Position numbers and translations under genes: made by a program. Positions 8,002 through 54,675 of a DNA stretch of 64,000 nucleotides are shown here, piece by piece. Under the pieces are notes generated by a model. It was not told the origin of the DNA. It ran no database searches and saw only the letters and a program-made list of their open reading frames with translations. The stretch is from Chamaelirium japonicum (Eukaryota; Streptophyta; Magnoliopsida; Liliales; Melanthiaceae): contig OX393549.1 in the NCBI GenBank assembly GCA_947650365.1, positions 83,993,362 through 84,057,361 of the forward strand. Reading direction: 5' to 3'. The first letter of the stretch is position 1; each line of letters starts with the position of its first letter.

Positions 8002-11000
8002 TGTCACGTCCCAGAAATCTGAAACCGACTCCTGGGGTGTGAATTGAGAAAAACCAAGGGTTTTAGGGTGTTGTCAACTGTCTACTCCAATTTGGGTTTC
8101 TCACAGGGCTTCTACTCTCTCAAGGAATATTTTAAAAATTACTTTTTACGAAAATATTTTTATTTTGAAAGAAAATATAGAGATACCGTTTCATCGCCAG
8201 AGAGATGAATACACTCGACCCTCAACCGGGCTATCCTATCAGCATGTGCGGCCTGCTAGTGCCCCACATGCTGACAGAAGTCCCTCTGAAGGGAGCACGA
8301 GACTCAAGCCTCTAACGGCGAGCCGAGTAGCCTCGCCCGCTTTCTAGCACTCGGGCACTGATTCACATGTCCTATCTAATGGGCTTGTCAATTTGGTAAC
8401 TTTAAGATTTATATTTTATTGTGAGCTATCCTAGGCTTGGGGCCTTGAGGAGAGGCCTACCCAAAGAGAACACAGTTGTATCATTGCCACTAACAACATA
8501 CACTAAGCCAAACCTAGTTCGATTACAATGCCATAAAGAAACAGTACTGCTATACGACATACTGCAATCTAAAACTCCACCGCCGTCCTAACTCCGCCGC
8601 TGACCTCGTGCTACGGCTACCCCTGAGTCTCCGAACCTGCAGAGGAGCCTACTCGTGGGAATGAGTAGCCCCCAAAATGAATTAGGAGATTAGCCAAATA
8701 AATGGCTAGTGACAAGCTAACTGCCTAGGTAATTAATGACGCCATCATTTTATAAATAATTTACTGATTATCCTAATTGTCCCACTACGTTTTCAATCAC
8801 GTCCTAAGTGTCCATGCATTTTCTACATTTGCATACAATTCCTACTATCACTAGGTTATCGAGAGTACCATTTTACAATTAATAAAATTAAACACACTCA
8901 ATGTGAACCCCGGATATTTTATTCATCCTGCCCCCGGTTGGGCATTACTATAGGGCCTTTTATTTCGATGTAGAAGACTAACTCTCTCGCCGTGCATACT
9001 CCGACACCATGTGCAAAATCATCCATATGATCATAAGGGGTTTCCCGTCTTTCACGGTGGAGCTCTTCCGCCCAACTTGCTTTCCTTGGGGGATTCAACT
9101 ACCCCGGGACAGGATTGTTAGGCCAATCCCTCTTCGAGGTCACCACCTATTGGCTTTACCACAATCCCTGCCCGTGACCCCCTAGCCTACTGATATTCGG
9201 CTGTGCGCGTAGGGTGGTTTCGATATTTTACCCCGGGATTCGCACCGCGCTCACAACCCGTGCATCATAATAACTATAAACTTTACTCTCACCCGTATTC
9301 CCGTGTGCCTGGGTCTCCACACTCCATCTAGGAGGGTGAGCCCGATAATTATTATTTAATTATAAATTTCTAGGCTTAAGGGAATTCCTACTTACGGTGT
9401 CCAAGCAATCATAAAATTTATTATTTAATTATATTATTAAGCATGCATCGCCGGACTCGCGACTCCGCATGCAAGGTGGGGTCCACTCGACCATATGCGA
9501 TGATATCCGGCGGGACCCGCATGCAGCGTTATGGACACCTACCCTTAATTTCTATAACATCATAGTTAATTATCTAAACAACGTGCAGTGTCACCTAGAA
9601 GGTGTGCTCAGGCTGATGCTACTAGGCATCCTCCGCTCCGTCTCCGACTTGATCCACGCGTCGACTAACTACCAAATATACCAGCGACCTATGGTCATTA
9701 TGTGCTACCAAAATATCGCTGGCTTAGGTCCTGATTGGCCGAGTTGAGAATTTGTGCGTCATCGAATATTGGTCTACTGGCACGCAAACCGATGCGCCAA
9801 AGATAGTGTCATCGGATATCAGTCTACTGGTACGTAACTCGATATGCCAAAGGTAGCATCATCAGACACCGGTCTACTGGCACGCAAACTGATGCTCCAA
9901 GGGCATCGTCCCGGTTAGTCGATATTATCAATGCTAGAAGTCTTTTTAGGGTTCAATGGTGCTATTCTGACAAAACGGTCGTAACCGCATTGGTCGATGG
10001 AAAAATCGCTAAAGCCGATCACGGTCGGGCTTAGGTGTTGAAGGTCGGTCTCGTGCGTAAAAGGCTATGCGAGGTGGTTTGGCCCGCATCGGTATCATCA
10101 ACTTGATACGAGCGTGACTCGAGGAGATCGGGCCCGCTAACCACAAGTGTGGGCCCAAAGTGCTTGATCTATATTGTGGGGAGGTCGAGGTTGGTGTGCC
10201 AAGCCACAACTTGGCGTGAGATCATCGGGGCTACCTGCCGCCGGTCCATCTGTTGTCAAGCAACCGGCAATGATCGTGCAAGAGAAAGGTTGTGATTTAG
10301 CTCGGTCGGCGTGATGGTGGTTGGGTGCGAGATGATGTCGAGCCAAGGGTAATCGGGTGCACTATCCATTGCTCGGCCGCCAACGGGGGTCGTCGGCAAC
10401 CTCGACAACGAAAACAACCGGGGCAGCGCCTAGCTAGTCGGGCTGGTCGGATGGGGGTTTGACTTGGCTTGGTCAGCCTTGCCGATCGTATTGTCGCCGG
10501 TCACTTGGCCGGCAGTCATGACTGCAACCATAGCAAAGGCCATAAGCAAACATGGCCGTATCAAGGTCGATAGGTTCCACAAGAAAAATACCGCCGGTAC
10601 CGGGTCGGCTTCGCCGGCTGCACAGACACCGGCCACATGGTCGATAGTCGTGCAAATGACCATAGGGGAGGGGTCTCGGCAGTTGCACAGTCGCCGGCCA
10701 CCGGGCCGACGACCATGGCCATGGCAAGAGGCGAACGGGGTGGGTGGCTGTGGTCGGTCAACCCACAACACACACACACAAAAGAAAAAAAAAAGAAGGA
10801 GGGAAGGAGGTCTGACTTGGGGGCTCCTCCCTTCAAGCTCCGGCCGGCGGCTCTCCTCCGGCGCCGGCGCGGGCGCGCTCCGGCTGCCGCACGCCACACA
10901 CACAACAAGAGGGAGAGGAGAGAGAGAGAGATCGGAGGGGAAATGAGGCTCGGAGAAGGGGGTAAGGGAGATCGGATAGGGTAAGGGGGAGGGGGGAGGG

Positions 11001-11023
11001 TGAGGGATTTTTAAAGGGAGGGG
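8002..11023 (-). repeat. Tekay-1 3' LTR, distal part
   Basis: Matches 26103-29215 of the 5' LTR over its length. The outer end is TGTCACGTCCC (plus strand), against TGTCACGCCCC in the partner. Contains a roughly threefold ~50-bp tandem repeat at 9757-9925 (core GTCTACTGGCACGCAAAC). Compared with the 5' LTR it lacks about 75 bp between two GTGGTT words (at 9214). Apparent frames in 10430-11041 are LTR sequence, not genes. Confidence 0.9.
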
Positions 11024-13337
11024 TACTGGATGTAAATCCATGGTAGAGGCCTACAGCGAAAGAAAAGTGAAGGTCCAAAGATTGTGAGCGGTGTGCGTTA
11101 CATATCAAAATTTTCATCGAAACGATCTACACGTGCATGTATGAATCTAGCATGACAACTACGCGAACCCCTAACATCGATCTAATACGAAAGAACAATC
11201 TAGCATGTATGCATATTCTATCTATACTAGATCTACATGTTAGAGATCATACTTGCGTGTGGATTCTTTCACCGCGACAAATTTCTTCTTTGTCGATGGA
11301 GACGGGCTCGGATCTACTCGATATAGCTTCGATGCGACAGCCATAACTTTATGTTCCGAACTCCGATTGGGCTGAAATTTGGACAGCAGGTAGCCAACTT
11401 CAAGACACAACTTTTGTAATAAGTTTTACCTTGTTTGGACTTCTGTAGCTCCCCAAATCATAGAAACAACATTTAGTTTTTGTGTAGATTCTGGACTACA
11501 AAAGCTTGCGGGAGATGCCTTCTAGTTCACCCGATCTCGCACGATATACGGCACTTTGTCGATGGATCTCTGAGTGCCTTCATCCGATGAGCCTTCTCCT
11601 TCTACGAAACCCTACGCAAAAAAGACGAGTCGCCATCCAATGGCGCAGGCGAGGGAGAGAGAGACGAGTGAGGAGAAGAGAAGAGAGGAGAGGGGGCGGC
11701 TAGGGTTTCCCCATGGCATGGCCGGCCCTAAGGCTTGTCATCACCGACCCCCCATCTCCCCCATTACTCTTATATAGGGATGCCCTATCCTTATGGATGA
11801 GGCTAGTACAAATAAGGTTCAACTAATTCAAACCTCTCCCTATTCATTTATCTCTATCTCTTCCTTGGTTCTGAAAACGGTCAAAATCAGCCCATTTTCT
11901 ATGCCTCGTGACTGGCCCCATCATTGGAGGCAACAACCTTCTGAAACCAATGGGGCCAGCCTTGACCAATCTCCCAACACTTAGGGCCGGCCCCCTTAGT
12001 GCATAGTGGCGCATGGTATGACCAAAACGCCCTTATGTTACTAATTGGTCGTTCCTCATGTACGAGACTTTGCAAGACACACATAAGTGAAGTGCACCAT
12101 TGATTTCAATATTCTCTGAGGTTCCCGTAGGGTGCCCCTAGTGAAGTCAAGTAGTCAACTCGCAACATATCTCAGTGCATCACACCCATGTGGCAAAGTC
12201 CACTTATGGCAAAGAATTGCTACAGGCGTCTTTGCACTAACATAGGGTTTCCCCTTAGTGCACACACGTAGTTACGCATCTACCGTGCACTAGTACGAAG
12301 CACTCACGGAGCGTAGGCTTGGACTTCTCGCTTTCTCTAACTATATTCTGTGTTTCGAGGAGATGGTATAAGGACCGTACATAATGTCGATAAGGTGAAA
12401 CCTTCAGGGACCAGGGTTTATGGCTTCCAACTTAGACTCGATCGATACACTACCCGAGTGTACCATCGATCCTCTGAGTCCGAGTTAGCTTGCGTGGCCA
12501 CCCAGAGTGCGACACAGGTTGCACTCTAATTTCTCCGGACTTACTATGTTCTCCCTCATACTCATGCTCTCCGCTTAGTATGGTAAGCCCGATGTCCCTC
12601 CACTTGGTGCCATGATGCAACTCGAGCAGTGGAGAATACCGTCAGACTTGAGTGCTCATATGACTCGGTTCCTTCCATGTTGACCACATATATCGTACCT
12701 CTGATTACTCTGACGAGCAATCGAATCCATCACCAGTCCAACTGATGACCACCTGGCCAGGGTTTAATACGACGAAGGTCAGACCAAAAAACGCACATCT
12801 CGTTAGGGGTGTGGATAGTCTGTAGGAGTGACACGCTGATGCAACGCCAACCGGGTAACCCAGTACACCGTGGTTTTGGATCACTGCATCCGGATCCTCA
12901 CATATTGGTGCGCCAAAGTACCACACAACTGGTTAGTCCACCAGACATGGCTCCTCAGGGTTTAGGACCGTTTTACCCTAAGCAGAAACGCGGCTTAGTG
13001 CATCGGTGTCTGCTTACCGATCTGTGCACCGTGTTGGTTCCGTTCGGCCACAGACACTGTGCCTGGTAATGACCGTGGTGGAGACACCCACGCTCTGTCA
13101 TCCCAATAGCTTATCCTTATAGAGCGACTAACCATAATCAGAGCTGCGAACGTATTTAGGTTACATGGGACCAGTCCCTTGAGTCTCCTACTCAAGTGGA
13201 TTACCATGTAGCCATGACTCTCTATTCTGTAATCAGAACACGTACTAAGATATGTACCAATATGCAATCCTATATTATCAACCATACATAGCTAAACTAT
13301 AGGTTTGTACGAGCTGTAGACCTCACCAATTATAACA
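11024..13337 (-). repeat. Copia-1 3' LTR
   Basis: 2314 bp, aligned along its whole length with 18600-20920. Starts TACTGGATGTAAATCCATGG and ends TATAACA on the plus strand. Carries no gene; the ORF-like stretches (for example 12705-13285) occur in equivalent form in the partner LTR. Confidence 0.92.
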
Positions 13338-18585: not shown

Positions 18586-18597
18586 GCTCTGATACCA
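18586..18597 (-). promoter_or_regulatory. Copia-1 primer binding site (tRNA-iMet)
   Basis: Coding-strand TGGTATCAGAGC, complementary to the 3' end of initiator tRNA-Met, two bases inside the 5' LTR. Standard position for minus-strand priming, and it fixes the element's orientation. Confidence 0.92.
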
Positions 18598-20920: not shown

Positions 20921-20925
20921 AGGGG

Positions 20926-21292
20926 ATGGGTGACGGCCGACGAGATTCAGGTGGAATCCGGGGTGGCGACGGCGGTAGGATTTGGGGCGCGATTCGGGGT
21001 GGCGACGGCAGAGGGATCCGGGGCGAGATTCGGGGCGGGGGCGGCGGTGGCGGCGTCCGGTTTGGGGTGGGGCCGGGTCGGATTGGATCGGAGAGAGAGA
21101 GAGAGAGAGGGTCGAGTGAGAGTGGGGATCCGAGAGAAGAGATGGGAGAGAAGAAAGGAAGAGAGAGAGAGAGATTAGAAGGGACGGGTCGGGTTTGGGT
21201 TGGGTTGGGTGGTGGGTTTGGGTTTTGTTTTTTGTTTAGTTTTTTTTTTGTCTCTTTTTTTTGTTTTTTATTTTTTTATACCGGTCGTTACA
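20926..21292 (-). repeat. Tekay-1 3' LTR, proximal part
   Basis: Continues the LTR interrupted at 11023; equals about 29210-29558 of the 5' LTR. Its coding-strand start TGTAACGACCGGTATAA directly follows the polypurine tract AAGGTAGGTAGGA. Rich in (GA)n and GGTTTGGG words. Confidence 0.92.
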
Positions 21293-21337
21293 TCCTACCT
21301 ACCTTAATAGAATTTTCGTCCCGAAAATTAAATAACA

Positions 21338-24300
21338 CTAGTCATCAAACAAAGATGGGTACAGGGATCGCATCGCGGACTCAAGTTCCCAAGTAGCTTC
21401 CTCCTCACTGCAGTGCTGCCACTGCACTTTCACCATGGGGATGGTCTTCGTACGAAGCACTCGATCCTCGCTAGCTAAAATACTGATCGGTCGCTCCTTA
21501 TAGGACGCATTTGAACTGAGTGCCAGGTCCTGCCAATCCAGCACGTGGGATGGGTCCGGCTCGTACCTCTGTAGCATCGACACATGGAAGACACCGTGGA
21601 CGCTAGAGAGCTGTGGAGGCAGTGCCAACCGATATGCTACCTCACCAACTCTCTCCAAGATCTCGAAGGGGCCGATGAATCTTGGAGCCACCTTCCCTTT
21701 CTTCCCAAACCTCGTGATGCCTCGACGAGGGAAAACCTTCAAGAAGACATGATCTCCAATGGTGAACTCGAGCGGGCGTCGACGAACATCAGCATAGCTC
21801 TTCTGTCGGCTCTGCGCCGCTCGAAGTCGCTCCCTGATCAACTGGATCTTCTCCGTCGTCTCCTGAATGAGCTCCGGTCCCAAAAGGCTCTGCTCTCCTA
21901 CCTCCGCCCAACAAAGAGGTGACATACATGGCCTCCCATACAAGACCTCATAGGGGGCCATGCCGATACTGGCTTGGTGGCTATTGTTGTAGGCGAACTC
22001 CACAAGAGATAGATGCTCCTCCCAACTGCCTCCAAAATCCACCGAATATGCCCGCAACATGTCCTCCAAAATCTGAATCGTCCTCTCGGACTGGCTATCT
22101 GTCTGAGGGTGGAAGGCTGTGCTAAAACTGAGTTCAGTCCCCAAGGCTGTCTGCAGGCTCTCCCAAAAGTAAGAAACAAACCAAGAATCTTGATCTGAGA
22201 CGATGGAAACTAGAACTTCGTGCAGTCTAACAATCTCCCTCACGTACAGCTTTGCTCGGTCGATGGACGTCATCGTCATCCACACAGTAAGAAAGTGCAC
22301 TGACTTCGTCAGTCTATCCATGATCACCCAAACAATGTCATGCCTGTTCCGGGTCAAAGGCAATCCCGAAACAAAGTCCATCGTAATATGCTCCCATTTC
22401 CACTCAGCTACTAGGAGTGGTTGCAGCAATCCAGCCGGTCTCTGGTGCTCAGGCTTGACTTGCTAACAAGTCAAACATCTGGACACAAAGGCGGCCACAT
22501 CCCGCTTCATGCCCTTCCACCAGAACTACCTCCGTAAGTCATGGTACATCTTGGTGCTGCCGGGGTGCACCGAGAATCTAGATCGATGCGCCTCTGATAG
22601 CACCTCCTCTCGAACCTCCTCATCATTGGGAAGGCATAACCTCCTCTGGAACCTCAGACCTCCATCAGCATCAACTGACCAGTCTGGAACAGACTCCCCA
22701 CTATCGCACCGTACTCTTATCTCCTCAAGCTCTGAATCCAATCTCTATACTGCAATCACCTTCTGAAGTAGGTTGGGCTGTACTCGCATGGTGCACAACA
22801 CGGTACAAGATGGTTCCCATTGAACCCAAAAATCAAAACCTTCTATCGTAGCCAAAAAGTCATGTCGATCTGTTAACAATCTGGCAAGCTGACTACGGGA
22901 CTTCCAGCTCAGGGCATCTGTAACAACATTCGCTTTACCAGGATGGTAAAAGAGCGAATAGTTGAAGTCCTTCAAGACTTCGATCCACCCCCTCTGCCGC
23001 ATGTTCAGATCCTTCTAACTCGTGATGTACCGCAGGCTCTTGTGATCGCAATACATCTCAAACTCCTCACCGTACATGTAATTCCTTCAGATCTTCAAGG
23101 CAAAGACCACCGGTACCAACTCCAGATCATGGGTGGGATAATTCTTCTCATGAGTCTTCAGTTGTCTCGAGGCGTATACAACCACTCTGTCGTCCTGCAT
23201 CAGAACTGCTCCAAGCCCCATCAGTGAGGCGTCAGTGAAGACCACATAACCCTTGCCGCTAGCTAGAATCGTCAGCACTGGGGCCGAAGTGAGACGCCGC
23301 TTCAACTCTCGAAAGGACTTCTCATAATCTTCCGACCACTCGAACTTAACACCCTTCTTAGTCAGACAGGTGAGAGGTGCAGCCAGACGCGAGAATCCCT
23401 CCACAAAGCATCGGTAGTAGCCTGCTAGCCCCAAGAAACTCCTGATCTCGAAGACATTCCTTGGCTGCTCCCAGTCCCTAACAGCCTCTATCTTCGCTGG
23501 ATCCACCGAGATACCTTCCTTCGAGACTACGTGTCCGAGGAACTTCACCTCCTGCATCCAGAACTCACACTTATTGAGCTTGGTATACAGTTGGTGATCT
23601 CTAAGGGTCTGCAATACTGCGCTCAGGTGCTCTTGATGATCTTCCTCCATCTTGGAGTAAATGAGGACATCGTCCACAAATACCACCACAAATCTATCCA
23701 GGAACATGCTGAAGACGCGGTTCATCAGATCCATAAATGTTGCAAGAGCATTCGTCAGACCGAAGGGCATGACTAAGAACTTATAGTGCCCGTATCACGT
23801 CCGAAACACTGTCTTCGGAATATCCTCTGCCCTCACAGCTAGCTGGTGATATCCAGTCCTTAGATCAATCTTCGAGAAGCAACAATCACCCTTTAGCTGA
23901 TCAAACAGATCCTTTATTCGCGGTAACGGGTACTTGTTCTTTATCGTGAGGCTATTCAGCTTGCGATAATCAATGCAAAGCCTCTTCGTCCCATCCTTAT
24001 TCTGAGCAAAGAGGACCGGGGCTCCCCAAGGAGATGTGCTGGGACAAATGAAGTCTCGATCAAGCAACTCCTCCAACTAGGTCTTCAGCTCCTTCAGCTC
24101 AGCAGGAGCCATCCGGTACAGAGCAATCGAGACTGGTGCTGCTCCCGGTACTAGATCTATAGCAAACTCGACCTCTTGAGGTGGAGGTAAGCCTGGGAGC
24201 TCATCTGGAAAGACGTCTAGGAACTCACGAACCATCGGCGAGAGTACTACTGGGTTCCTATCTCGATCCCTGCTTGGTAGTTGCGCCAGTAAGCTGAGGG

Positions 24301-24757
24301 AGATCTGCTGCAGTGGTACCGGGCACAGAACCTTCTGCTTGTCTCCCATAAAGTAGAAGACCTTACTCCCCGGAGGTGAGAAGGTGACCTTCCTCGAGAA
24401 GCAGTCAAGGGTGACATGGTAAGCCGACATCCAATCCATCCCGAGCAACACGCCCACTCCTCCCAAGTCTAAGATAATCAGGTCGGCTGAGAGCTCCCTA
24501 TCTCCAACAAGAATGATGCAGTCCCGGCAGACTCGGTCCACATCGGTACTCACCCCGAGCGGTGAAAACACCGACAGAGTGTGACCCAATGGGACCGACT
24601 CCAGTCCCAAAGTTTTGACAAAACTAGGGACAATATAGGAGTATGTGGACCTACTGTCGAAAAGAACGTGAGCCAGGGTCGAGAAGACGGGGAGGGTGCC
24701 TAACAATAACGGAAGAAAGTAAGAAACTAAGCTAGCTAATGACCAGTACTAGTCCTA
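21338..24757 (-). pseudogene. Tekay-1 pol (protease, RT, RNase H, integrase, chromodomain)
   Basis: One continuous frame from protease to the stop at 21338-21340. Protease: LFDSRSTYSYI, where the catalytic DSG is changed to DSR. RT: FVDD present near 23660. RNase H: FTDAS near 23250. Integrase: HPG of the zinc finger near 22560, core with HITMDFVSGLP and HPQTDSQSE, and a C-terminal chromodomain-like motif. The last 363 codons (22429-21338) are uninterrupted. In-frame stops at 24755, 24749, 24077, 23795, 23087, 23015, 22745, 22526 and 22463 (lowest coordinate of each) are mostly TAG where Tekay-2 or the family has Gln. Not functional. Confidence 0.9.
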
Positions 24758-24928
24758 ACAAGTCTCAAAGGAATCAAAGGCAGCAAAGCAGCTACGACTA
24801 AGAATTGAACTACTAAGTTCAGGGTTACCTTCGATCGCTCCCCCAGAAGCCTCTGGGTCTTGACCGACCAACAAGTATGCTCTGCCCTGAGCCTGATTTC
24901 CTCCACCGCCCTGACAGGGGAAAGGCCT

Positions 24929-25985
24929 CTACTATTGTGGCTGGGGAGGACGCTGCTTCTGAGCTCTCTGTGGGGGCCTCTGCTGCTGCACAAGTGGTGC
25001 CGGCAGTGCAGGCCTGAGAGGTAGAGCTGGTAGAAGCGGCTGCCGACGGAGCTGTGGGCAGCTCCACTTTCGATGCTCAAGCGAGCCGCAATAGAAACAG
25101 CTACGCCTCTGGGGTCCAGGAATTGGAGGACCATGGAAATGCTGAGGCTGGCAAGGCGGGAGTCGAACCTCCGTGGGTCTGAACCTCTTCTGGGTCGGTG
25201 GGCCATGACGACTGCCATTACCCCGCTTCTCCAAGATAGCACGGGACTCCTTCAACTCTTGCTCCACTGCCAAGGATCGGTTGACCAACTCCTTATAGGA
25301 TTGCCCTAAGAAGGCAGCAATCCTACCCCTGATCGCCGGGTTCAGACCATGCTGAAACCGCATAGCCCTCCTGCCATCGGTCACCACCTGGTGAAGAGCA
25401 TACCTTGCAAGCTCTGAGAATTTGGCCTCATACTGTGACACAGTATGAGACCCCCGGTAGAGCGCCAGAAACTCCATCTCCATCCGGTTCTGCACGGTAA
25501 CCGGAAAGAACTTCTTCCAAAAGATTTCCTCGAACTCTAGCCAAGTGATCGCTCCTCGATCTGCTGCTCGGGTGTGCTGAACTGTCTGCCACCAGAAGTC
25601 TGCCTTAGCCTCGAACTGGTATGAGGTGAAGGTGACTCTCTTGTCGCCGGTGATGCCCAATGCGTTCAGTATCTTCTCTGTCTGCTGGAACCATCGATCG
25701 GCCTCCAAGGGGTCTGGCTTACCCCTGAAGCTCGACGGTCCCATCGCCTTAAAGTCCTTTAGTAATTTCCCCTGCCGCTTGCCCTTGGCCTGCTGCCAAG
25801 CCTGGGCCTGGGCAAGGGTAGCCTGAGCTAACTCAGCCTGCTGCTGAGCAGCCGTCTGCTACTGGGCAACAGCAGCTTGCTGCTGCTGGACCATGGCGGC
25901 CATCCCTTGGAGCATTTCCATCATCATCACCGTGCTATCTGACGCCCAGCGGACGATCCTGCTCCGTTGTTAGCACCATTACCAC
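24929..25985 (-). pseudogene. Tekay-1 gag (capsid and nucleocapsid)
   Basis: Gag packages the element's RNA. The capsid region (KPDPLEADRWFQQTEKILN and FWKKFFPVTVQNRMEMEFL) is followed by a CCHC zinc knuckle, CFYCGSLEHRKWSC. The N-terminal Gln-rich part has TAG at 25859-25861 and a small frameshift near 25945 relative to Tekay-2. Two adjacent TAGs at 24929-24934 cut it from pol, although the frame continues into pol, as expected for a gag-pol polyprotein. Confidence 0.9.
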
Positions 25986-26087
25986 TTCTGGTACCCACCA
26001 TCTGAAAAGAAAAGGGATTAGTCTAATGCTAACCTCCTAATAAGACTCTAGACCAAACTAGAGACTGCCCCTAGAAACATATCCCTA

Positions 26088-26100
26088 GGCTCTGATACCA
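26088..26100 (-). promoter_or_regulatory. Tekay-1 primer binding site (tRNA-iMet)
   Basis: Coding-strand TGGTATCAGAGCC lies two bases after the LTR end CGTGACA. Complementary to the initiator tRNA-Met 3' end. Confidence 0.92.
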
Positions 26101-26102
26101 GC

Positions 26103-30348
<4,246 letters not shown>

Positions 30349-32242: not shown

Positions 32243-34043
<1,801 letters not shown>

Positions 34044-34190
34044 AATGCTATAATGCGATATGCGGTAAGTGCGGCACCTCACCGCAGTCGTCTGATGCAC
34101 CGCTGCGTGCATCGCATGCACGCAGCGCGTGCATCAGACGGCTGCGGTGCAGTGCCGCACGTACCGCATACCGCATTATAGCATGCCCGT
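34044..34190. mobile_element. Foldback MITE, family A, copy 2
   Basis: 147-bp near-palindrome like A1: AATGCTATAATGCGATATGC facing GCATACCGCATTATAGCATG, and GCATCAGACGGCTGCGG inside. (GA)/(TA) on the left, ATATATATA on the right. Confidence 0.84.
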
Positions 34191-34200
34191 ATATATATAG

Positions 34201-35855
<1,655 letters not shown>

Positions 35856-36196
35856 TGTGACGACCAAGATCCAATAGGCCAATAGCCAAGAGCCAAGACT
35901 CCTGAGGCGGGAATGCCAAGATGGATGAGGTGAGGTGAGGTGAGGTGAGGTGTACAAGGCCATGAGTTAACCCCACATCGTCTGGAGAGAAGGAAATCCT
36001 GAGCTACTTATATAATTTCCCCTCCCAAACATAGAAGACGCATTTTAAAACCGTGCGCCGCTACGGATTTCGTAAGAACTCCGTAGTTAAGCGTGCTCGG
36101 GTGAGAGTAGTACCAGGATAGGTGACCCCCTGGGAAGTTCTCGTGCGGGCACGGGCAAAGCGGATAATATCTTGTGTGTTTGAGGTGGATGTTATA
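35856..36196 (+). repeat. Cassandra-like 5' LTR of Tekay-2
   Basis: 341 bp from TGTGACGACC to GGATGTTATA. In order: a GGTGA tandem repeat (35929-35950), CCCACATCGTCTGGAGAG, a TATA-like TTATATAA, AAAACCGTGCG, the 5S-derived segment, and GCAAAGCGGATAATATC. That succession is the one I know from Cassandra LTRs. It shares no similarity with the 3' LTR of this element apart from the TG start. Confidence 0.8.
36064..36152 (+). ncRNA. 5S rRNA-derived segment with pol III internal promoter elements
   Basis: Matches the 3' two-thirds of plant 5S rRNA: AGAACTCCGTAGTTAAGCGT, GAGAGTAGTACCAGGATAGG and GTGACCCCCTGGGAAGT differ from the rRNA at only a few positions. These cover the A box, intermediate element and C box of the 5S promoter. 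The first ~30 nt of 5S rRNA are not recognisable and no T-run terminator follows directly, so this is a retrotransposon-borne 5S domain, not a 5S gene. Confidence 0.87.
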
Positions 36197-36199
36197 AGC

Positions 36200-36212
36200 T
36201 GGTATCAGAGCC
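36200..36212 (+). promoter_or_regulatory. Tekay-2 primer binding site (tRNA-iMet)
   Basis: TGGTATCAGAGCC three bases after the 5' LTR. The same PBS is used by Tekay-1 and, with the LTR-end context GTTA.A-AGC, by Cassandra. It is the point where the two element types meet. It overlaps the inverted repeat CCTAGGGATATGTCCCTAGG at 36211-36230. Confidence 0.88.
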
Positions 36213-36317
36213 TAGGGATATGTCCCTAGGGGTTAGTTTCTAGGATTATGAGTCAGTCTAGAGTCTAAATAGTTGGTTAGTAGATGGTTGACGTTAGGAC
36301 TATCTTTTCAATTTCAG

Positions 36318-37560
36318 ATGGTCGGTACTAGGAGTGAAAATGGTGCGAGTAACGGAGCAGGATCGTCCTCTGCGTCTGATAGCACGGCGAGGATGATGGA
36401 AATGCTCCAGGGGATGGCCACCATGGTCCAGCAGCAGCAAGCTACTGTTGCGCAGCAGCAGACGACTGCTCAGCAGCAGGCCGAGCTAGCACAGGCTGCT
36501 CTTGCCCAGGCCCAGGCTCGTCAGCAGGCTGAGGGCGAGCGGCAAGGGAAATTGCTGAAAGACTTCAAGGCGATGGGACCACCGAGCTTCAAGGGTGAGC
36601 CAGACCCCATAGAGGTCGATCGATGGTTCCAGCAGACTAAGAAGATACTGAACGCGTTAGGCATCACCGACGATAAAAGAGTGACCTTCGCCTCGTACCA
36701 GTTTGAGGCTGAGGCAGACTTCTGGTGGCAGGCAGTCCAGCGCACCAGAGCAGCAGATCGAGGAGCGATTACGTGGCAGGAGTTCGAGGAACTCTTTCGG
36801 AAGAAGTTCTTTCCGATTACCGTGCAGAATCGGATGGAGATGGAGTTTCTGGCGCTATATCAGGGATCTCGTACTGTGACACAGTATGAGGCCAAGTTCT
36901 CGGAGCTTGCGAGGTATGCTCCACAGCAGGTGGCGACCGACGGTAGGAGAGCCTTGCACTTTGAGCATGGCTTGAATCCAGCGATCAGAGGTAGGGTTAC
37001 CCCTTTCTTGGGGCAATCTTATGAGGAGTTGGTCAACCGGTCCCTGGCAGTGGAGCAGGAGTTAAAGGAGTCCCGCGCTATCCTGGAGAAGCGGAGTGGT
37101 AGCAGTCGCAACGGTCCACCGACTCAGAAGAGGTTTAGGCCTATGGAGACTCGACCCCCGTCGTGCCAGCCTTAGAACTTTTGTGGTCCTCCGGCTCTTG
37201 AACCGTCGCGGCATGGATGTTTTCAGTGCGGTTCGTTTGAGCATCTGAAGTGGAACTGTCCACAGCTTCGTCGGCAGCCACTCCTACCAGCTCCACCCCA
37301 GAGGCCTGCTCTGCTGCGACCACCTGTGCAACAGCAGAGGCCTCCATAGAGAGCTCAGCAGTAGCAGCGTCCTCCCCAGGCACAACAGCAGAGGTCTTTC
37401 CCCCGTCAGGGCGGAGGAGGCAACCAGGCTCAGGGAAGGACGTACATGCTAGTTGGTCAAGACCCAGAGGCTTCTGGGGGAGCGATCGAAGGTAACCCTG
37501 GACTAAGAATTTCAATTCGTAAACGTATTGGTGTAGTTGTCTTTGCTATTAGTTTTGACT
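36318..37560 (+). pseudogene. Tekay-2 gag
   Basis: Starts MVGTRSENGASNG, then a Gln-rich stretch, the capsid region (PDPIEVDRWFQQTKKILN), and a CCHC knuckle, CFQCGSFEHLKWNC, near 37220. Stops at 37173, 37347 and 37362 are all TAG at positions where CAG fits. A frameshift lies between about 37500 and 37650, before protease. Confidence 0.9.
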
Positions 37561-37639
37561 CGTTAGAACCTGCAGCAACCGGTAGCTAGATTAGTTTCTT
37601 ACATATTTCCGATAACGCTAGGTACCCTTCCTGTCTTTT

Positions 37640-40600
37640 CGACCCTTGCTTTTGTTCATTTCGATAGCGGGTCTACTCACTCCTATATCGTCCCTAGTTT
37701 TGTCAAGACTTTGGGACTGGAGTCGGTTCCATTGGGTCATACTCTGTCGGTGTTTTCACCGCTCGGGGTAAGTACCGATGTGGACCGGATCTGCCAGGAC
37801 TGCATCATTCATATAGGAGACAGAGAGCTCTCGGCAGACCTCATTGTCCTGAACTTAGGAGGAGTGGACGTACTGCTTGGGATGGATCGGATGTCAGCCT
37901 ATCACGTTACCCTCGATTGCTTTACTAAGAAGGTCACATTCTCACATCCGGGGAGCGAGGCGTTCTACTTCTTGGGAGACAAGCAAAAGATCTTGTGCCC
38001 GGTACCGCTGCAACAGATCACCCTCAGCTTACTAGCGCAGCTACCGAGTAGAGATAAAGATGGGAATCCAGTAGTGCTACCACCGATGGTTCGTGAGTTT
38101 CCGGATGTCTTCCCAGACGAGCTTCCAGGCTTGCCTCCACCTCGAGAGGTTGAGTTTGCTATAGATCTCGCACCGGGAGCAGCACCGATCTCAGTTGCTT
38201 CGTATAGGATGGCTCCCGCGGAGCTAAAGGAGTTGAAGACCCAGTTGGAGGAGTTACTTGATAGAGGCTTTATTCGTCCCAGCACGTCTCCTTGGGGAGC
38301 CCTAGTCCTGTTTGCTCAGAAGAAGGATGGGACGAAGAGGCTTTGTATCGACTATCATAAGCTGAATAGCATAACGATCAAGAACAAGTACCCTTTACCT
38401 CGAATTGAGGACCTATTTGATCAGTTGAAGGGGGCTTGCTATTTCTCGAAGATCGACCTGAGGATCGGATATCATCAGTTGGCTGTGAGAGCGGAGGATA
38501 TTCTGAAGATTGCGTTTCGGACACGATATGGGCACTATGAGTTTTTGGTCATGCCCTTCGGTCTAACAAATGCCCCTGCATTATTTATGGATCTGATGAA
38601 CCGAGTCTTCAGCATGTTCCTGGACAGATTCGTTGTGGTATTTGTGAACGACGTTCTCATTTACTCCAAGATAGAGGGAGATCATCGAGAGCACCTGAGT
38701 GCTCTGTTGTAGACCCTCAGAGACCACCAACTGTATGCCAAGCTCAGTAAGTGGGAGTTTTGGATGCAGGAGGTGAAATTTCTTGGACACGTTGTCTCAC
38801 AGGAAGGCATCTCTGTGGATACATCGAAGATAGAGGCCGTGATGGACTGGGAGCAGTCGAAGAATGTATTTGAGATCAGGAGTTTCTTGGGGCTAGCAGG
38901 CTATTATAGACGTTTTGTGGAGGGATTTTCTCGTCTAGCAGCACCTCTCACCTGTCTGACAAAGAAGGGTGTCAGGTTCGAGTGGTCGGAAGATTGTGAG
39001 AAGTCCTTCCGGGAGTTGAAGAGGCGTCTTACTTCGGCCCCAGTGCTTACGATTCCGGCCAGTGGCAAAGGTTATGTTGTCTTCACCGATGCCTCACTGA
39101 TGGAGCTTGGAGCTGTACTGATGCAGGATGGTAGGGTGGTAGCCTATGCCTCTAGGTAATTGAAGACTCACGAGAGGAACTATCCCACCCATGACTTGGA
39201 GTTGGCTGTAGTGGTTTTCGCCCTGAAGATATGGAGTCACTACTTGTACAGTGAGGAGTTCGATATGTATTGCGACCATAAGAGTCTGCGATACATCGGG
39301 AGTCAGAAGGATCTGAATATGCATCAGAGGAGATGGATCGAGGTCCTGAAGGATTTTAATTATTCGTTCTTTTACCATCCTGGTAAGGCGAATGTTGTTG
39401 CAGATGCCTTGAGTCGGAAGTTCCACAGCCAGCTTGCTAGATTGGTGACTGATCGATAGGACTTTCTGGCCACGATAGAAGGCTTTGATTTGTGGGCTCA
39501 GTGGGAGTCCTCTCATACTGTGTTGTGCACCATGCGAGTGCAGCCTAGCCTACTTCAGAAGGTGATTGCAGCACAGAGGTTGGATTCTGAGTTGTAGGAG
39601 ATTAGAGTGCGGTGCGACAGTGGGGAGTCTGTCCCGGATTGGTCGATCGATGCTGATGGAGGTCTGAGGTTTCAAAGGAGGTTGTGCCTCCTTGCTGATG
39701 AGGAGGTTCGAGAGGAGGTGTTATCGGAGGCGCATCGATCCAAATTCTTGGTGCACCCTGGCGGCACCAAGATGTATCTTGATTTGAGAAGACAGTTCTG
39801 GTGGAAGGGAATGAAGCGTGATGTGGCCACCTTTGTGTCTAGATGTTTGACTTGTCAGCAAGTCAAGGCTGAGCACCAGAGACCGGCTGGATTGCTGTAG
39901 CCGCTTCCAGTAGCTGAGTGGAAATGGGAGCACATCACGATGGACTTTGTTTCAGGGTTGCCTCTGACCCGGAACAAACATGACTCAATTTGGGTAATCG
40001 TGGACCGACTGACGAAGTCGGCGCACTTTCTTCTGGTGCGGACGACGATGACATCTATCGACCGAGCGAAGTTATATGTGAGGGAAATTATCAAGCTGCA
40101 CGGAGTTCCAGTTTTCATTGTCTCGGATCGAGATCCTCGGTTCGTTTCTCGATTTTGGGAGAGCCTGCAGACAGCTTTGGGGACGGAGCTCAGTTTTAGC
40201 ACTGCGTTTCACCCGCAGACGGATGGCCAGTCAGAGAGGACGATTCAAATTTTGGAGGATATGTTGCGGGCTTGCACAGTAGATTTTGGAGGCAGTTGGA
40301 AGGAGCACCTACCTCTTGTAGAGTTCGCCTACAATAATAGTCACCAAGCTAGCATCGGCATGGCCCCCTATGAAGCTTTGTACGGGAGGCCATGTCGGTC
40401 ACCTCTTTGTTGGGCAGAGGTAAGAGAGCGGAGTCTCTTGGGGCCAGAGCTTGTCCAGGAGATGACTGAGAAGATCCAGCTGATTAGAGAGCGACTTAGA
40501 GCGGCGCAGAGTCGATAGAAGAGCTACGCAGATGTGCGTCGACGCCCGCTCGAGTTTACTGTCGGAGACCATGTCTTCCTGAAGGTTTCCCCTCGGTGAG

Positions 40601-40983
40601 GCATCACCAGATTTGGGAAGAAAGGGAAGTTGGCTCCGAGGTTCATAGGTCCTTTCGAGATCTTGGAGAGAGTTGGCGAGGTGGCATATCGTCTGGCACT
40701 GCCCCCGCAGCTCTCTAGCGTCCACGGTGTCTATCACGTGTCAATGCTTCAGAGGTATGAGCCAGACCCGTCGCACGTGTTAGATTGGTAGGACCTGACC
40801 CTCAGTTCAGACGCGTCCTATGAGGAGCGACCGATTAGGATCTTGGCTAGAGAAGATCGAGTGCTTCGTACAAAGACCATCCCCATGGTGAAGGTGCAGT
40901 GGCAGCACTGTAGTGAGGAGGAGGCTACGTGGGAGCTCGAGTCAGCGATGCGGTCCCAGTACTCTTCCTTGTTTGATGATTAG
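37640..40983 (+). pseudogene. Tekay-2 pol (protease to chromodomain)
   Basis: Protease with intact [10 protein letters not shown] near 37660. RT with the catalytic box changed to FVND at 38641-38652, which would inactivate it. RNase H with FTDAS near 39080. Integrase HHCC near 39735-39860 (CLTCQQVK) and DDE core (MDFVSGLP, IVSDRDPRF, HPQTDGQSERT). Chromodomain-like end EEEATWELES. Continuous in one frame from 37711 to the TAG at 40981, apart from stops at 38710, 39157, 39457, 39595, 39898, 40516, 40597 and 40789. Of these eight, six are TAG replacing Gln, one TAA replaces Gln, and one TGA replaces Arg (CGA). No frameshift in pol after 37711. Confidence 0.92.
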
Positions 40984-41028
40984 TGTTAGTTAATTTTCAG
41001 GATGAAAATTTTAATAAGGTGGGTAGGA

Positions 41029-41497
41029 TGTAATACCCGGTGCGTTTAATTTCAGGGCAGCCCAGTTATATTATTATTTTTTATTGTTGCTAAATTGATT
41101 GTTTTGTTTTCGTATTTATGATCATCGATGGTGTGTGCTTGAACCTGAGTTGGACCGGGCAGTGGGCCCCGGGTCCGGGTCGTTAGGCGACACTGGAGGC
41201 ATGGCATGAATGTTTTGATAATTTAAATTAATTAATATAATAGATTACAAGGCGAGTTTGCTGGACTCGTAAGGGTTGCGCACCGGCACGTCCCAGTGCG
41301 ATGCGAACTCCAGTGTGAGCCTTGCTTAATTCCGAGCAATGATTGTTTGGTGGAGAAAACAAAAATTAAAAACCGAAACCCAATCTCCACCCAACCCAAC
41401 CGTTTCTCTCACTATCTCTCTCTCTCTCTCTCTCTCTCTTTATCCTAAACCCAAACCCATTACAACCTGATCCCATCTCTCTCCCTCTCAAAACCGA

Positions 41498-41529
<32 letters not shown>

Positions 41530-44359
41530 CCATCACCGTCCAGCCCTCGCTCTCTCCCTCCATCTCTCAGCCGTTTCCCCCTCAACCCGATCCGATCTCC
41601 CCGCACGATTCCCCCCTATCCCGCAGCCCCTATCAAACCCGATCCAATCCCCTCAACAGCCCATCACCCTCCGATCTCCCTCTCAATCTCGATCCTCTCC
41701 CTCTCAATCCCGATCCCGTGATCCCTTCCCTCTCATCTCTATCTCCCCATTAGCCTCGATCTGATCCCCTCCGAGATACCCGCAGCCCCCTCCCCTATTT
41801 AACAAACCCTAGACCCAGCCCGATCCCACCCCTGTCCGACCTCTCCCTCTCTTTTGGATCTCTCCTTCCCTTCCGATCTTCCCCTGTAGTCTGTGAGCGC
41901 AGCAGCCGACCGGGGAGGAGCAGGCGGAGGAAGAGCTATAGCCGACGACCCCGACTGCACCAGGTCAGCCTCCCCTCCATCCCCTATTCTTTCTTTTTCT
42001 TTCTTTTTCGGCTCTGTTGGGACCAACTCGACGAACCCCTGTATTTTTTTCTTTTTTTTCTGTGCTAATCCGACCAGCCACCATCGACCTGTCCCTACCT
42101 TCACTACAACGTCTGTGTTTTGTGCCCGATGGCCCAACGAACCCAGTCAACCTTTGGCTTTGCATGACCCCTGACCTGCCGGTTTTGGCCGAGCACTCGA
42201 AGCTGAAAACCTAGGGTAGAATTGTTATATTCTTTTTGGTGGTATTGTTATTGGCAGTCGGCCCGATGGCGGATTCGCCAAGCCAAACCAGGTCACACCC
42301 AAACAACCCTCGTACCCATCCGGTCGTTCCCAGATTCGACCCAATGAGACTAGTTAATTACCCCCGATCCGATTTTAGACCCTGTAAGGTCCTAAGGTCC
42401 GTCTGTAAATTATTTTCTGAACCCAAAACCCTAGCCCGAGGACGTCTTGGGCAAAAGACGAACCGACCCCCGACTTGGCTTTCTCACCCTTGTAGGGACC
42501 CACCGACTTAGATTTTAATATATGCTCATGTGATTGAATTACTAGTTTGTACCGGGACGATCCAGCCGTGGACAGAGTAGAGGCCAGAGATAGGAGTCCG
42601 TGCACGTCGACCAGGTGACAGCACGTTTTCTTTAATAATTAATAATGTCGATATAGAAATTAAGGGTAGGTATCCATAACGCTGCATGCGGGTCCCGCCG
42701 GACGTCGTCGCATGTGGTCGAGTGGACCCCGCCTTGCATGCGGAGTCACGAGTCCGACGATGCATGCATAATAAGTTAATAGTTTAATAATGAATATTCT
42801 ATTGTTTGCATGGACACCATAGGTAGGTATTCCCTTAAATTGAATAAATAAATAATTAAAGAATTACCGGGACCCACCTTCCTGAGGGGAGCGTGATAAC
42901 CCCAGTAAATGGATTTTGGGCGAGAGTACTTTTATTACATTTAATTATGATACTGGGTTGTGAGTGGGTGCGAATCCCGGGGTAATCCATTGAATATGAT
43001 TAAACACTGTTTAGTTCTATCAATGCCATTTGGTATGTTAATGATTGTTAATCTATCTGGTTAGAGGGTAGGGATCCCGTGCGCGCAAGGGCCATGAACT
43101 ACCTAGCGCGTACAGCCGAAGTTAAGTAGGTTAGGGGTCACGGGCAAGGGTTGTGGTAAAGCTAATAGGAGATGCCCTCGAGTAGGGATTGGCCTAGCAA
43201 CCCTGTCCTGGGGAGTTGAAGTCCCCATAGTAAAGCAAGTTGGGCGGTAGAGCTCCACCGTGAAAGACGGAAAACCCCTTATGATCATCTGGATGAATTG
43301 TGCATGGAGTTGGTGGATGCACGGCGAGAGAGTTGGCCCTCTACATCGAAATAAAAGGCCCGATAGTAATGCCCGACCGGGGGCAGGTTGAACAAAATAT
43401 CCGGGGTTCATGTATGAGTGTGTAATTGTCTGATTATAAATTTTGAATTGTATGACTATTCACACGATGACCTAGTGACAGTAGGATTTGCATGTGAATG
43501 TAAAAATTGCATGGACACATAGGACGTGTTTGGGAACATAGCTTGACAATTAGGTTAATCAATAATTTGTCTTAAAAATTTAAGCGTTGTTAATTATTAA
43601 AATTGTTAGCTTGTCACTAGCCATTTATTTGGCTAATCTCCCAAATGCATTTTTGGGGGCTACTTATTCCCACGAGTAGACTCTTCTGCAGGAGCTGAGG
43701 CACAGGAGCAGCAGGAGGAGTCCAGCAGTCAGCTTAGGGTAGCAGCTTATTTTTCTATTTATGTCAATCTTAGTAGTGGTACTTTTTCATTCGATGTAAT
43801 CGAATTGGATTGGAATAAGATTTTATTAGTTAGTTAGTTTGATAAGTGGTAATGTGCCAGCTGAATTTCTTTGGGTAGGCCACTCCTCAAGGCCCCAAGC
43901 CTAGGTTAGATCACCACAAAGATATAAGATGAATAATTGACCTAATTTGACAAGCCCAGTAGATAGGACCTCCAGACAGATGCACCATATGTTCGGGAGC
44001 GGGTGAGATACTCGGCTCGCCGTCGGAGGCTTGAGCCTCGTGCTCCTTTAGAGAATATTCTGTCAGTATGTTGTAACACCGTTGGGTCGCATGTACTGAA
44101 CGGATATCCCTTTTGCAGGTCGAGCCTGGCCTAATGTTCTCTCGGTTGATAAATTTTAGTTCTAAAAGAAATACAAATATTTTCAAGTTTCAAACCATCC
44201 TCTTTCGTTTCTTCCTCTTCTTTCATTTGCTTGTGTGTGAGCGTAGCAGGAGCCCAGTGAGAATCCTAAATTGGCATAGTTAAGTAACCATACCCAGAAC
44301 CCCCTTCCTTTCTCACCTCACACCCCAGGAATCGGTCTTCAGATTTCTGGGGCGTGACA
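41029..44359 (+). repeat. Tekay-2 3' LTR
   Basis: 3331 bp, from TGTAATACCCGG after the polypurine GGTGGGTAGGA to GGGGCGTGACA. The right half is related to the Tekay-1 LTRs (for example GGCTAATCTCCCAAATGCAT and CTTATGATCATCTGG), while the left half differs. (CT)n clusters occur at 41404-41530. No gene. Confidence 0.88.
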
Positions 44360-44399
44360 GCTCACTTTCTAAATCGGCAGCTCACAGCTCACTGTAACA

Positions 44400-44402
<3 letters not shown>
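44360..44402. mobile_element. Foldback MITE, family C, copy 3, right part
   Basis: GCTCACTTTCTAAATCGGCA to CTGTAACATTC completes the element begun at 35499. (TA)n follows immediately. Confidence 0.85.

Positions 44403-44448
<46 letters not shown>
44403..44448. repeat. (TA)n microsatellite
   Basis: TA array of 46 bp between C3 and A3. Confidence 0.97.
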
Positions 44449-44450
<2 letters not shown>

Positions 44451-44597
44451 GCATGCTATAATGCGGCATGTGGTACGTGCGACACTGCACCACAGCCGTC
44501 TGATGCACGCGTTGCGTGCATGCGATGCATGCATCAGTGCATCAGACGGCTACTATGTGGTGCCGTACTTACCGCATGCCGCATTATAGCATGCCCC
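44449..44597. mobile_element. Foldback MITE, family A, copy 3
   Basis: GGGCATGCTATAATGCGGCA faces TGCCGCATTATAGCATGCCC. 149 bp, (TA)n on both sides. Closest to A1. Confidence 0.87.

Positions 44598-44631
<34 letters not shown>
44598..44631. repeat. (TA)n microsatellite
   Basis: Short TA array between A3 and F. Confidence 0.95.
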
Positions 44632-44633
<2 letters not shown>

Positions 44634-45255
44634 AATGATAGGCTGCGGCGTGCGCTGCCCGGCCTATAAATGCGGTGGCAAAATCTGGCCGTCCGATCGC
44701 GCGGATCGCGCGCAAATCCCCCGCCCGCCCCCCGCCCGTCTGATCATCCGTATAGACCATCTGATCCCGTATAAATCCAGTCGCTCCGGTGTGTTTCTAT
44801 GATCATTTGATTCTCATCCGTTCGATCGATGGGATCTAACGGACTAAAAAATTTTTGATGTTACTGTAGCGGCTACAGTAACAGCGAAAATCCCTTTAGT
44901 CCGTTGGATTCCCATCGATCCAACGGATGGGAATCAAGTTGATTCCCATCCGTTGGATCGATGGGAATCCAACGGACTAAAGGGATTTTTGCTGTTACTG
45001 TAGCGGCTACAGTAACAACGAAAATTTTTTAGTCCGTTCGATCCTATCGATCGAACGGATGGGAATCAAATGATAAATGAAACACACCGAGCGACTGGAT
45101 TTATACGGGATCCGACGGTCTGTACAGATGATCAGACGGGAGGGAGGTTTGCGGGCAGTTCGCAGCCGATCCGCAGCCGATCCGCGTGATCGGACGGCCA
45201 GATTTTGCCACCGCATTTATCAGGCCGGGTACCGCACGCCGCAGCCTAACACGCC
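44632..45255. mobile_element. Foldback MITE, family F
   Basis: Ends AGGAATGATAGGCTGCGGCG and CGCCGCAGCCTAACACGCC pair. The interior has two CTGTTACTGTAGCGGCTACA-type hairpins and repeated CCATCGATCCAACGGATGGG words in mirror order. About 624 bp, (TA)n left, (CT)n then (TA)n right. Its ends match the arms that flank the MULE at 148 and 7272. Confidence 0.84.
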
Positions 45256-45259
45256 TCTT

Positions 45260-45305
<46 letters not shown>
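45256..45305. repeat. (CT)n plus (TA)n microsatellite
   Basis: CT to about 45278, then TA. Between F and H. Confidence 0.96.
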
Positions 45306-45308
<3 letters not shown>

Positions 45309-45697
45309 AAAAGGGAGCCTGGACCTAAGGTGCATGATCGTTGCTGCACAGGCATTGTTTACCTATCCTAGAAGTTTTGGAATTTGATGAAATTTGGTAA
45401 TGGTGTTGTCTAGGGTAAGATGATCATCTTCACAAAAAATCTCCAAATTCCAAAACTTCTAGAGGGGTTAAATGGTCAAAGCCAAATCAGTCGTCCGCAG
45501 TCACCGTTAAAATCTGTAAATTTTGCTTCGATCATTTTACCCCTCTAAAAGTTTTGGAATTTGATGAAAATTGGTGAGGATGCTCATCTTACCCTAGAAA
45601 ACAACCTCACCAAATTTCATCAAATTCCAAAACTTTTAGGGAGGTAAACAAGCGAAAGGTGCAGCAACAATGCTACACCTTGGGTGCAGGCTCTCTG

Positions 45698-50664: not shown

Positions 50665-51029
50665 GAGCATCTCCAACCATGGCCCCTATTTTTGCAATTA
50701 CCAAATGGAAATATTCTAAGAATATTTCTATTTGGAGGCCCTTTATTTTGATTAGCCTCCAACCATGGCCTCCATTTGGAGGCCCTCCATTTTGATCAGC
50801 CCTTCATTTTTTGGATATGATGGTCATTACATTTAATGTATACAAATTTTAGAGGGCCTTTTCGGAATTAATGGAAAGGAATAGTCAAATAGCAGCCTTG
50901 CTATTTTGACTTGAATCTCGACAAATATACCGGCCAAACCCCCCTTGCATTTATACAGGGGGCTATAGCATGCGGTTGGAGGAGCCCGACTGCCACTTAT
51001 GGCAAAATGGCAGACAGTTAGAGATGCTC
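50665..51029. mobile_element. Tourist-like (PIF/Harbinger) MITE
   Basis: Target duplication TAA (50662-50664 and 51030-51032). Terminal inverted repeats GAGCATCTCCAACC and TTAGAGATGCTC. Sub-terminal GGAGGCCCT words are repeated. 365 bp. TWA duplications with GAGCATCTCC ends are typical of Tourist-like MITEs in plants. Confidence 0.83.
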
Positions 51030-54662: not shown

Positions 54663-54675
54663 TGGTATCAGAGCC
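54663..54675 (+). promoter_or_regulatory. Copia-2 primer binding site (tRNA-iMet)
   Basis: TGGTATCAGAGCC one base after the 5' LTR. Confidence 0.93.

Follow-up and report, generated by a model that had tools for sequence, protein, structure and literature searches.

A retrotransposon in Chamaelirium japonicum with a Cassandra-type left long terminal repeat and the body and right long terminal repeat of a chromovirus

Ordinary reverse transcription of a retrotransposon yields two identical long terminal repeats (LTRs). Here, we describe an element with two unrelated LTRs, which lies in a 64,000-nt stretch of Chamaelirium japonicum DNA (Melanthiaceae; assembly GCA_947650365.1, contig OX393549.1, positions 83,993,362 to 84,057,361 of the forward strand). 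We refer to this whole stretch as “the window” and to the element, at 35856-44359 of the window, as “the hybrid”. Features are on the forward strand (+) unless marked (−). Read from left to right, the hybrid consists of a Cassandra-type 5′ LTR of 341 bp (35856..36196), a primer-binding site (PBS) for initiator methionine tRNA (tRNA-iMet), the broken coding body of a chromovirus, and a 3′ LTR of chromovirus type and 3331 bp (41029..44359). A single target-site duplication (TSD) encloses the whole, and the switch from one family to the other sits at the border between the left LTR and the PBS.

The TSD is a perfect 5-bp repeat, GCTCA, with its left copy at 35851..35855 and its right copy at 44360..44364, i.e., the borders read ...CCGCA GCTCA, then TGTGACGACC ... 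GGGGCGTGACA, then GCTCA CTTTC.... An earlier interpretation made from the letters of the DNA (“the sequence-only reading”) had proposed that this duplication splits a foldback element and that both ends of the hybrid belong to one unit. The left part of the foldback occupies 35500..35850 (start approximate), with arms at 35554-35681 and 35714-35841, and its remaining right end, placed by an inverted-repeat search and the empty-site alignment described next, occupies 44365..44402. Foldback (inverted-repeat) elements form a cluster adjoining (TA)n tracts (33151-35339 and 44438-45641), with related copies flanking the insertion on both sides.

For the empty-site test, the flank ending at 35855 was joined to the flank starting at 44365, so that one copy of GCTCA was retained. 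This composite aligns to the foldback's other arm (as reverse complement) and also to a paralogous foldback at 34343-34479, in both cases ungapped at the join and with small gaps elsewhere. When the start of the right flank was slid across 17 positions (44357-44373), 44365 scored highest against both references (138 and 82). Runner-up starts came near the top (134 and 80); since moving to a neighboring offset costs just a few points, the argument is carried by the continuity across the join combined with the exact duplication of 5 bp. The single TSD and the restored empty site show that the hybrid is the product of one integration, and the proposal of a single unit is upheld. Two independent insertions were considered and rejected, since they would not have one common TSD plus a seamless empty site.

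The left LTR had been described as Cassandra-type, with sequence derived from 5S ribosomal RNA (rRNA), and two lines of evidence agree with that description. A search with 4227 Rfam families returned a single hit at the gathering score in the 64-kb window: 5S_rRNA (RF00001, model positions 1-120) at 36037..36150, with 42.8 bits against a gathering score of 38. In addition, a published Cassandra query, adapted from PMC7215508, has one exact match, at 36086..36211, running through box A, box C, and then the PBS, with 0 matches in 100 shuffles. In the query as used, the first letter was dropped (the A at 36085 satisfies it) and the second gap was set to 61-90 bases; a version with a gap of 30-60 bases missed the left LTR because the actual gap is longer. 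The same query had 0 matches in viral and prokaryotic contig collections, a result that is uninformative on the host plant.

The passages of PMC7215508 on the Cassandra LTR define it by its 5S promoter boxes, and the left LTR contains both a 5S rDNA-derived box A (RGTTAAGYRHGY) and a box C (RRRATRGGTRACY). The PBS, TGGTATCAGAGC, starts at 36200, 49 bp past the end of the 5S match; in reported Cassandras, it lies 8 to about 173 bp downstream of the 5S stretch. Cassandra LTR lengths, as given in the relevant part of PMC10853983, range from about 200 to about 400 bp, and the 341 bp of the left LTR falls within this range. The left LTR terminates at 36196 as ..GTTATA (not CA), followed by the spacer AGC and the PBS (36197..36211), with a 1-bp shift of the boundary possible; the chimeric join lies here or nearby. 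The left LTR has no other match within the window at an E value of 1e-3. Cassandras have a pair of matching LTRs that flank a short non-coding interior. Here, only the left LTR is Cassandra-like, and we therefore do not classify the complete hybrid as a Cassandra.

Beyond the PBS, the hybrid is a chromovirus. A leader (36212..36317) is homologous by alignment to that of a second chromovirus in the window (see below). It is followed by a gag piece (Retrotrans_gag; 36318..37175), identified by open reading frame and domain models and ending at an in-frame stop, and by a broken pol (37567..40983) whose stop-separated pieces cover protease, reverse transcriptase (RT), RNase H, integrase, an SH3-like domain, and a chromodomain. 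In all, eight stop-free pieces of the body, searched apart, match models for gag and for these pol domains; the match to the integrase core (rve), at 28.3 bits, is under the curated cut-off of 32.6, and the chromodomain match, at 25.5 bits, is barely over its cut-off of 25.1. The order gag, protease, RT, RNase H, and integrase with a C-terminal chromodomain, as set by the coordinates of the pieces, is that of a chromovirus. The body ends in a polypurine tract (PPT), AAGGTGGGTAGGA (41016..41028), with 12 of 13 bases equal in the second element, and the 3′ LTR follows directly (TGTAATACCC...GGGGCGTGACA). Because in-frame stops interrupt its reading frames, this copy appears old and inactive. A protein search with gag found 3 relatives among 2687 candidates, the best being 41% identical (Rhododendron vialii).

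The sequence-only reading had named both the body and the 3′ LTR as Tekay. Their chromovirus identity stands, given the domain models and the alignment to the second element; the clade name is a matter of anatomy, with a 3.3-kb LTR, a Met PBS, and a chromodomain being suggestive of Tekay. We take an LTR length of ~3.3 kb to be a Tekay trait. Membership in the clade, as described in PMC6317226, is a matter of grouping with Tekay in trees of RT, RNase H, and integrase.

No similarity above chance was found between the left and right LTRs: the best local score, 21, was equalled or beaten by 126 of 200 shuffles. The two LTRs are thus unrelated, as had been claimed, and the hybrid departs from a normal LTR retrotransposon, in which both LTRs come from the same template. 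A diverged but normal LTR pair was rejected on the same absence of similarity.

The second chromovirus provides an internal control for the position of the switch. Its body (21293..26102, −) is 83.7% identical across the full 4832 bp of the hybrid body, and its 5′ LTR (26103..29558, −; TGTAACGACC...GGGGCGTGACA) ends directly before GC and the PBS, with the terminus ..TTTCTGGGGCGTGACA abutting GC-TGGTATCAGAGC. When the 5′ borders are aligned, the hybrid and the second element are unrelated through the end of the LTR and identical across AGCTGGTATCAGAGCCTAGGGATATGT, with identity starting at AGC/PBS; the spacer itself is AGC in the hybrid and GC in the second element. Because the second element shows the normal LTR-PBS arrangement at this same border, the switch in the hybrid sits at the LTR/PBS border. 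This is where the sequence-only reading had placed the join, at a tRNA-iMet PBS common to both element types. The part of the join region known to be common to Cassandras is the 12-nt PBS.

At the other end of the hybrid, the terminal 1765 bp of the 3′ LTR is 73% identical to the 5′ LTR of the second element (1796 columns), terminus included. Since the 3′ LTR ends with TTTCTGGGGCGTGACA, like that 5′ LTR, the U5 at the right end of the hybrid is the chromovirus's own. The first 1.56 kb of the 3′ LTR has only weak, partly low-complexity matches to the second element (59-61%), and the two elements therefore belong to different subfamilies. The second chromovirus as a whole spans 20924-29558 (−), and its full 5′ LTR (29558-26103) adjoins a (TA)n tract. 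The 3′ LTR of this element begins at 21292 and can be aligned to the 5′ LTR across no more than about 340 bp (88%), so that it seems to be truncated or interrupted near 20924. Another LTR piece belonging to this group of chromoviruses lies at 8002-9671 (−) and is some 73-74% identical to the 3′ LTR of the hybrid; it ends ..GACGTGACA with no PBS directly following, i.e., it is a 3′ LTR or the remnant of a solo LTR.

We consider it probable that the hybrid is one integration of a complementary DNA (cDNA) with a Cassandra left end and the body and right end of a Tekay-like chromovirus, formed by intermolecular plus-strand transfer. The sequence itself gives only the product, from which we infer the steps. 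A Cassandra RNA and a chromovirus RNA would have been packaged in one virus-like particle, with tRNA-iMet priming both. The chromovirus minus strand would have been finished normally, which would account for chromovirus U5 at the far right end of the hybrid. Cassandra plus-strand strong-stop DNA (U3-R-U5-PBS), initiated at the Cassandra PPT, would have annealed via the common PBS to the chromovirus minus strand, where it took the place of the chromovirus plus strand. Extension of both strands would have given Cassandra LTR, PBS, chromovirus body, and chromovirus LTR, in that order, and integrase would have taken one end from each element.

The left LTR begins with its own TG right at the TSD and stops at the PBS, which is the pattern expected of a PPT-primed plus-strand strong-stop DNA; this run from its own U3 tip to the PBS supports the model. 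Ty3 particles accumulate dead-end plus-strand strong-stop DNA, according to PMC5371799, and such accumulation would supply donor DNA for the transfer. For HIV-1, an intermolecular transfer of plus-strand strong-stop DNA at the PBS has been proposed as the origin of asymmetric-LTR proviruses (PMC9278108). Intermolecular second transfer has likewise been inferred from HIV-1 recombinants and is said to leave a breakpoint at U5/gag (PMC5651808). The sequence-only reading had held that the final step needs an unusual explanation. We correct this view: an intermolecular plus-strand (second) transfer, as proposed for HIV-1, would give exactly such a product, and the hybrid would be a natural outcome of that transfer between unrelated elements.

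Several observations weigh against plus-strand transfer between co-packaged RNAs. Retroviral second transfer is called generally intramolecular in the relevant passage of PMC5651808, although according to a review there is no agreement on the sequence in which strand transfers occur; PMC5651808 also records a U5/gag breakpoint in 0 of 27 HIV-1 proviruses, a result that would fit rarity of the intermolecular second transfer, or argue against that step. The Ty1/Ty3 model, as presented in a passage of PMC5371799, pairs the plus strand with R and U5. In the hybrid, the known sequence common to Cassandra and the chromovirus is the 12-nt PBS only, and the evidence comes from one old locus. The left LTR ends in TA instead of CA, which we read as later C-to-T decay, and this right end (..GTTATA) is not chromovirus-specific. 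The start of the hybrid's own right LTR, TGTAATACCC, agrees with the Cassandra tip at 6 of 10 positions (by eye). Finally, a third element could have provided the particle.

Two origins had been put forward in the sequence-only reading, co-packaging with template switching and later replacement of one LTR; co-packaging with strand transfer fits best, whereas later replacement fits poorly. A route that also requires one common particle, without an intermolecular second transfer, is a template switch during minus-strand synthesis. The growing chromovirus minus strand would have jumped at the PBS onto an LTR inside a Cassandra RNA of tandem or read-through origin and copied the whole Cassandra LTR, with plus-strand synthesis beginning at the Cassandra PPT just upstream. 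Such a switch, too, would put the left end precisely where U3 begins and the join at the PBS, and tandem Cassandra arrays and concatenated transcripts are reported in the corresponding part of PMC7215508. It would, however, require a multimeric Cassandra RNA plus a switch restricted to the short PBS, and there is no second Cassandra LTR in the 64-kb window; we regard it as unlikely. We find it distinctly improbable that the insertion was at first a normal chromovirus whose 5′ LTR was subsequently swapped for a Cassandra LTR by ectopic gene conversion or template-switch repair. Each border has short similarity, namely the LTR tip (TGTGACGACC agrees with TGTAACGACC at 9/10 positions and with TGTAATACCC at 6/10) and the PBS, but both breakpoints must hit the tip and the PBS exactly, with 3.3 kb exchanged for 0.34 kb through similar stretches of about 10 and 12-16 bp, and the TSD border is undamaged.

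Recombination between extrachromosomal cDNAs, or a particle of a third family packaging both RNAs, would leave no distinguishing trace here, and for Onsen, a passage of PMC5668417 considers that extrachromosomal DNAs may recombine on rare occasions. These routes need more steps or partners than one chromovirus particle and would make the similarity of the LTR tips coincidental, and we judge them very improbable. An assembly error merging a Cassandra copy with a chromovirus copy might be suspected because the region is repeat-rich and (TA)n-rich. A misjoin would have had little overlap to work with (the 12-nt PBS, perhaps up to 16 nt) and would not give the same TSD and a restored foldback arm at two distant ends; such an error strikes us as extremely improbable.

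Whatever its exact route of formation, the hybrid should be a dead end that does not spread in its present form, because the 5S-derived R on its left and the chromovirus R on its right mismatch and a daughter cDNA would find no matching R at its first strand transfer. Faithful copying of an already chimeric parent was rejected on similar grounds, since unrelated R regions should prevent the first transfer. By the same reasoning, finding this join at several loci would mean that the hybrid had formed repeatedly or been duplicated as DNA, not that it had transposed. The sequence-only reading had held that a single locus would point to local recombination or misassembly. We disagree on this point: a dead-end copy would not be expected to seed more loci, so that the absence of extra loci with the same junction is not in itself a sign of local recombination.

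Cassandra is reported throughout vascular plants. Its autonomous partners are described as unknown in a 2020 paper (PMC7215508), and a 2024 paper states that nothing indicates which family mobilizes it (PMC10886601), consistent with the sequence-only reading, which had called the helper unknown. That one integration combines a left end of Cassandra type with the right end of a chromovirus is evidence for the presence of both cDNAs in one reverse-transcription/integration complex, and the open question of the helper becomes testable through the hybrid. We tentatively suggest that Tekay-type chromoviruses may be the Cassandra helper in this plant lineage, although we hold this to be somewhat less likely than not. 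Their particles would package the Pol III RNA of Cassandra, their RT would copy it, and their integrase would accept the TGTGACGACC end; the hybrid would then be a fossil left by a particle of this kind, where the two cDNAs became linked at the common primer site.

The Cassandra tip, TGTGACGACC, and the LTR start of the second chromovirus, TGTAACGACC, agree at 9/10 positions. Across both strands of the window, 4 of the 7898 10-mers starting with TG reach 9/10, namely TGTGACGACC, two LTR starts, and one 10-mer at 50831 whose examined context shows no sign of an LTR. The agreement of the tips is compatible with recognition by the same integrase, and it follows from the structure of the hybrid that one target was joined by an integrase to both a Cassandra end and a chromovirus end. 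No paper was found that pairs the exact tip TGTGACGACC with Cassandra, and the main text of PMC7215508 prints no such tips. Because one accidental co-packaging suffices to produce it, the hybrid is a lead to the helper, not proof.

LTR swapping in soybean was reportedly described by Du in 2010, with the chimeras ascribed to reverse transcription. The hybrid shares features with each of its two source families. Like Cassandra (a TRIM of the TRIMp3 lineage), it has 5S promoter boxes in a short non-coding LTR and a Met PBS; unlike Cassandra, it has only one such LTR, with no matching 3′ LTR and a coding chromovirus behind it. With chromoviruses of the Tekay/Del clade (Ty3/gypsy), it shares gag-pol with a chromodomain, a Met PBS, and a 5-bp TSD, but its 5′ LTR comes from another family, and its likeness to the clade is one of anatomy. 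Template-switching complexes of grasses, i.e., Angela in Triticeae, Squiq in rice, and Opie in maize, are also chimeras ascribed to reverse transcription and flanked by a true TSD (Sabot and Schulman 2007). In those complexes the outer LTRs are alike, whereas in the hybrid they are unrelated and come from two families. The asymmetric-LTR proviruses of HIV-1 share with the hybrid the proposed transfer of plus-strand strong-stop DNA between two RNA copies at the PBS; as characterized in the part of PMC9278108 concerned with them, they mostly have 3′ LTR deletions in otherwise matching genomes, whereas the hybrid merges two unrelated families. Among the papers listed in a literature search, no title or abstract opening reported a Cassandra-chromovirus hybrid, and an earlier description is possible.

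The window contains traces of other LTR elements as well. Additional exact copies of TGGTATCAGAGC lie at 18586-18597 (−) and 54663-54674 (+) and are probably the PBSs of such elements; the sequence upstream of 54663 ends ..CTTACA C. Sequence present at 10601-11600 (−), e.g., GATCGTTTCGATGAAAATTTTGATATGTAACGCACACCGCTCAC, recurs ahead of the PBS at 18586 (−), which suggests copies of another LTR family.

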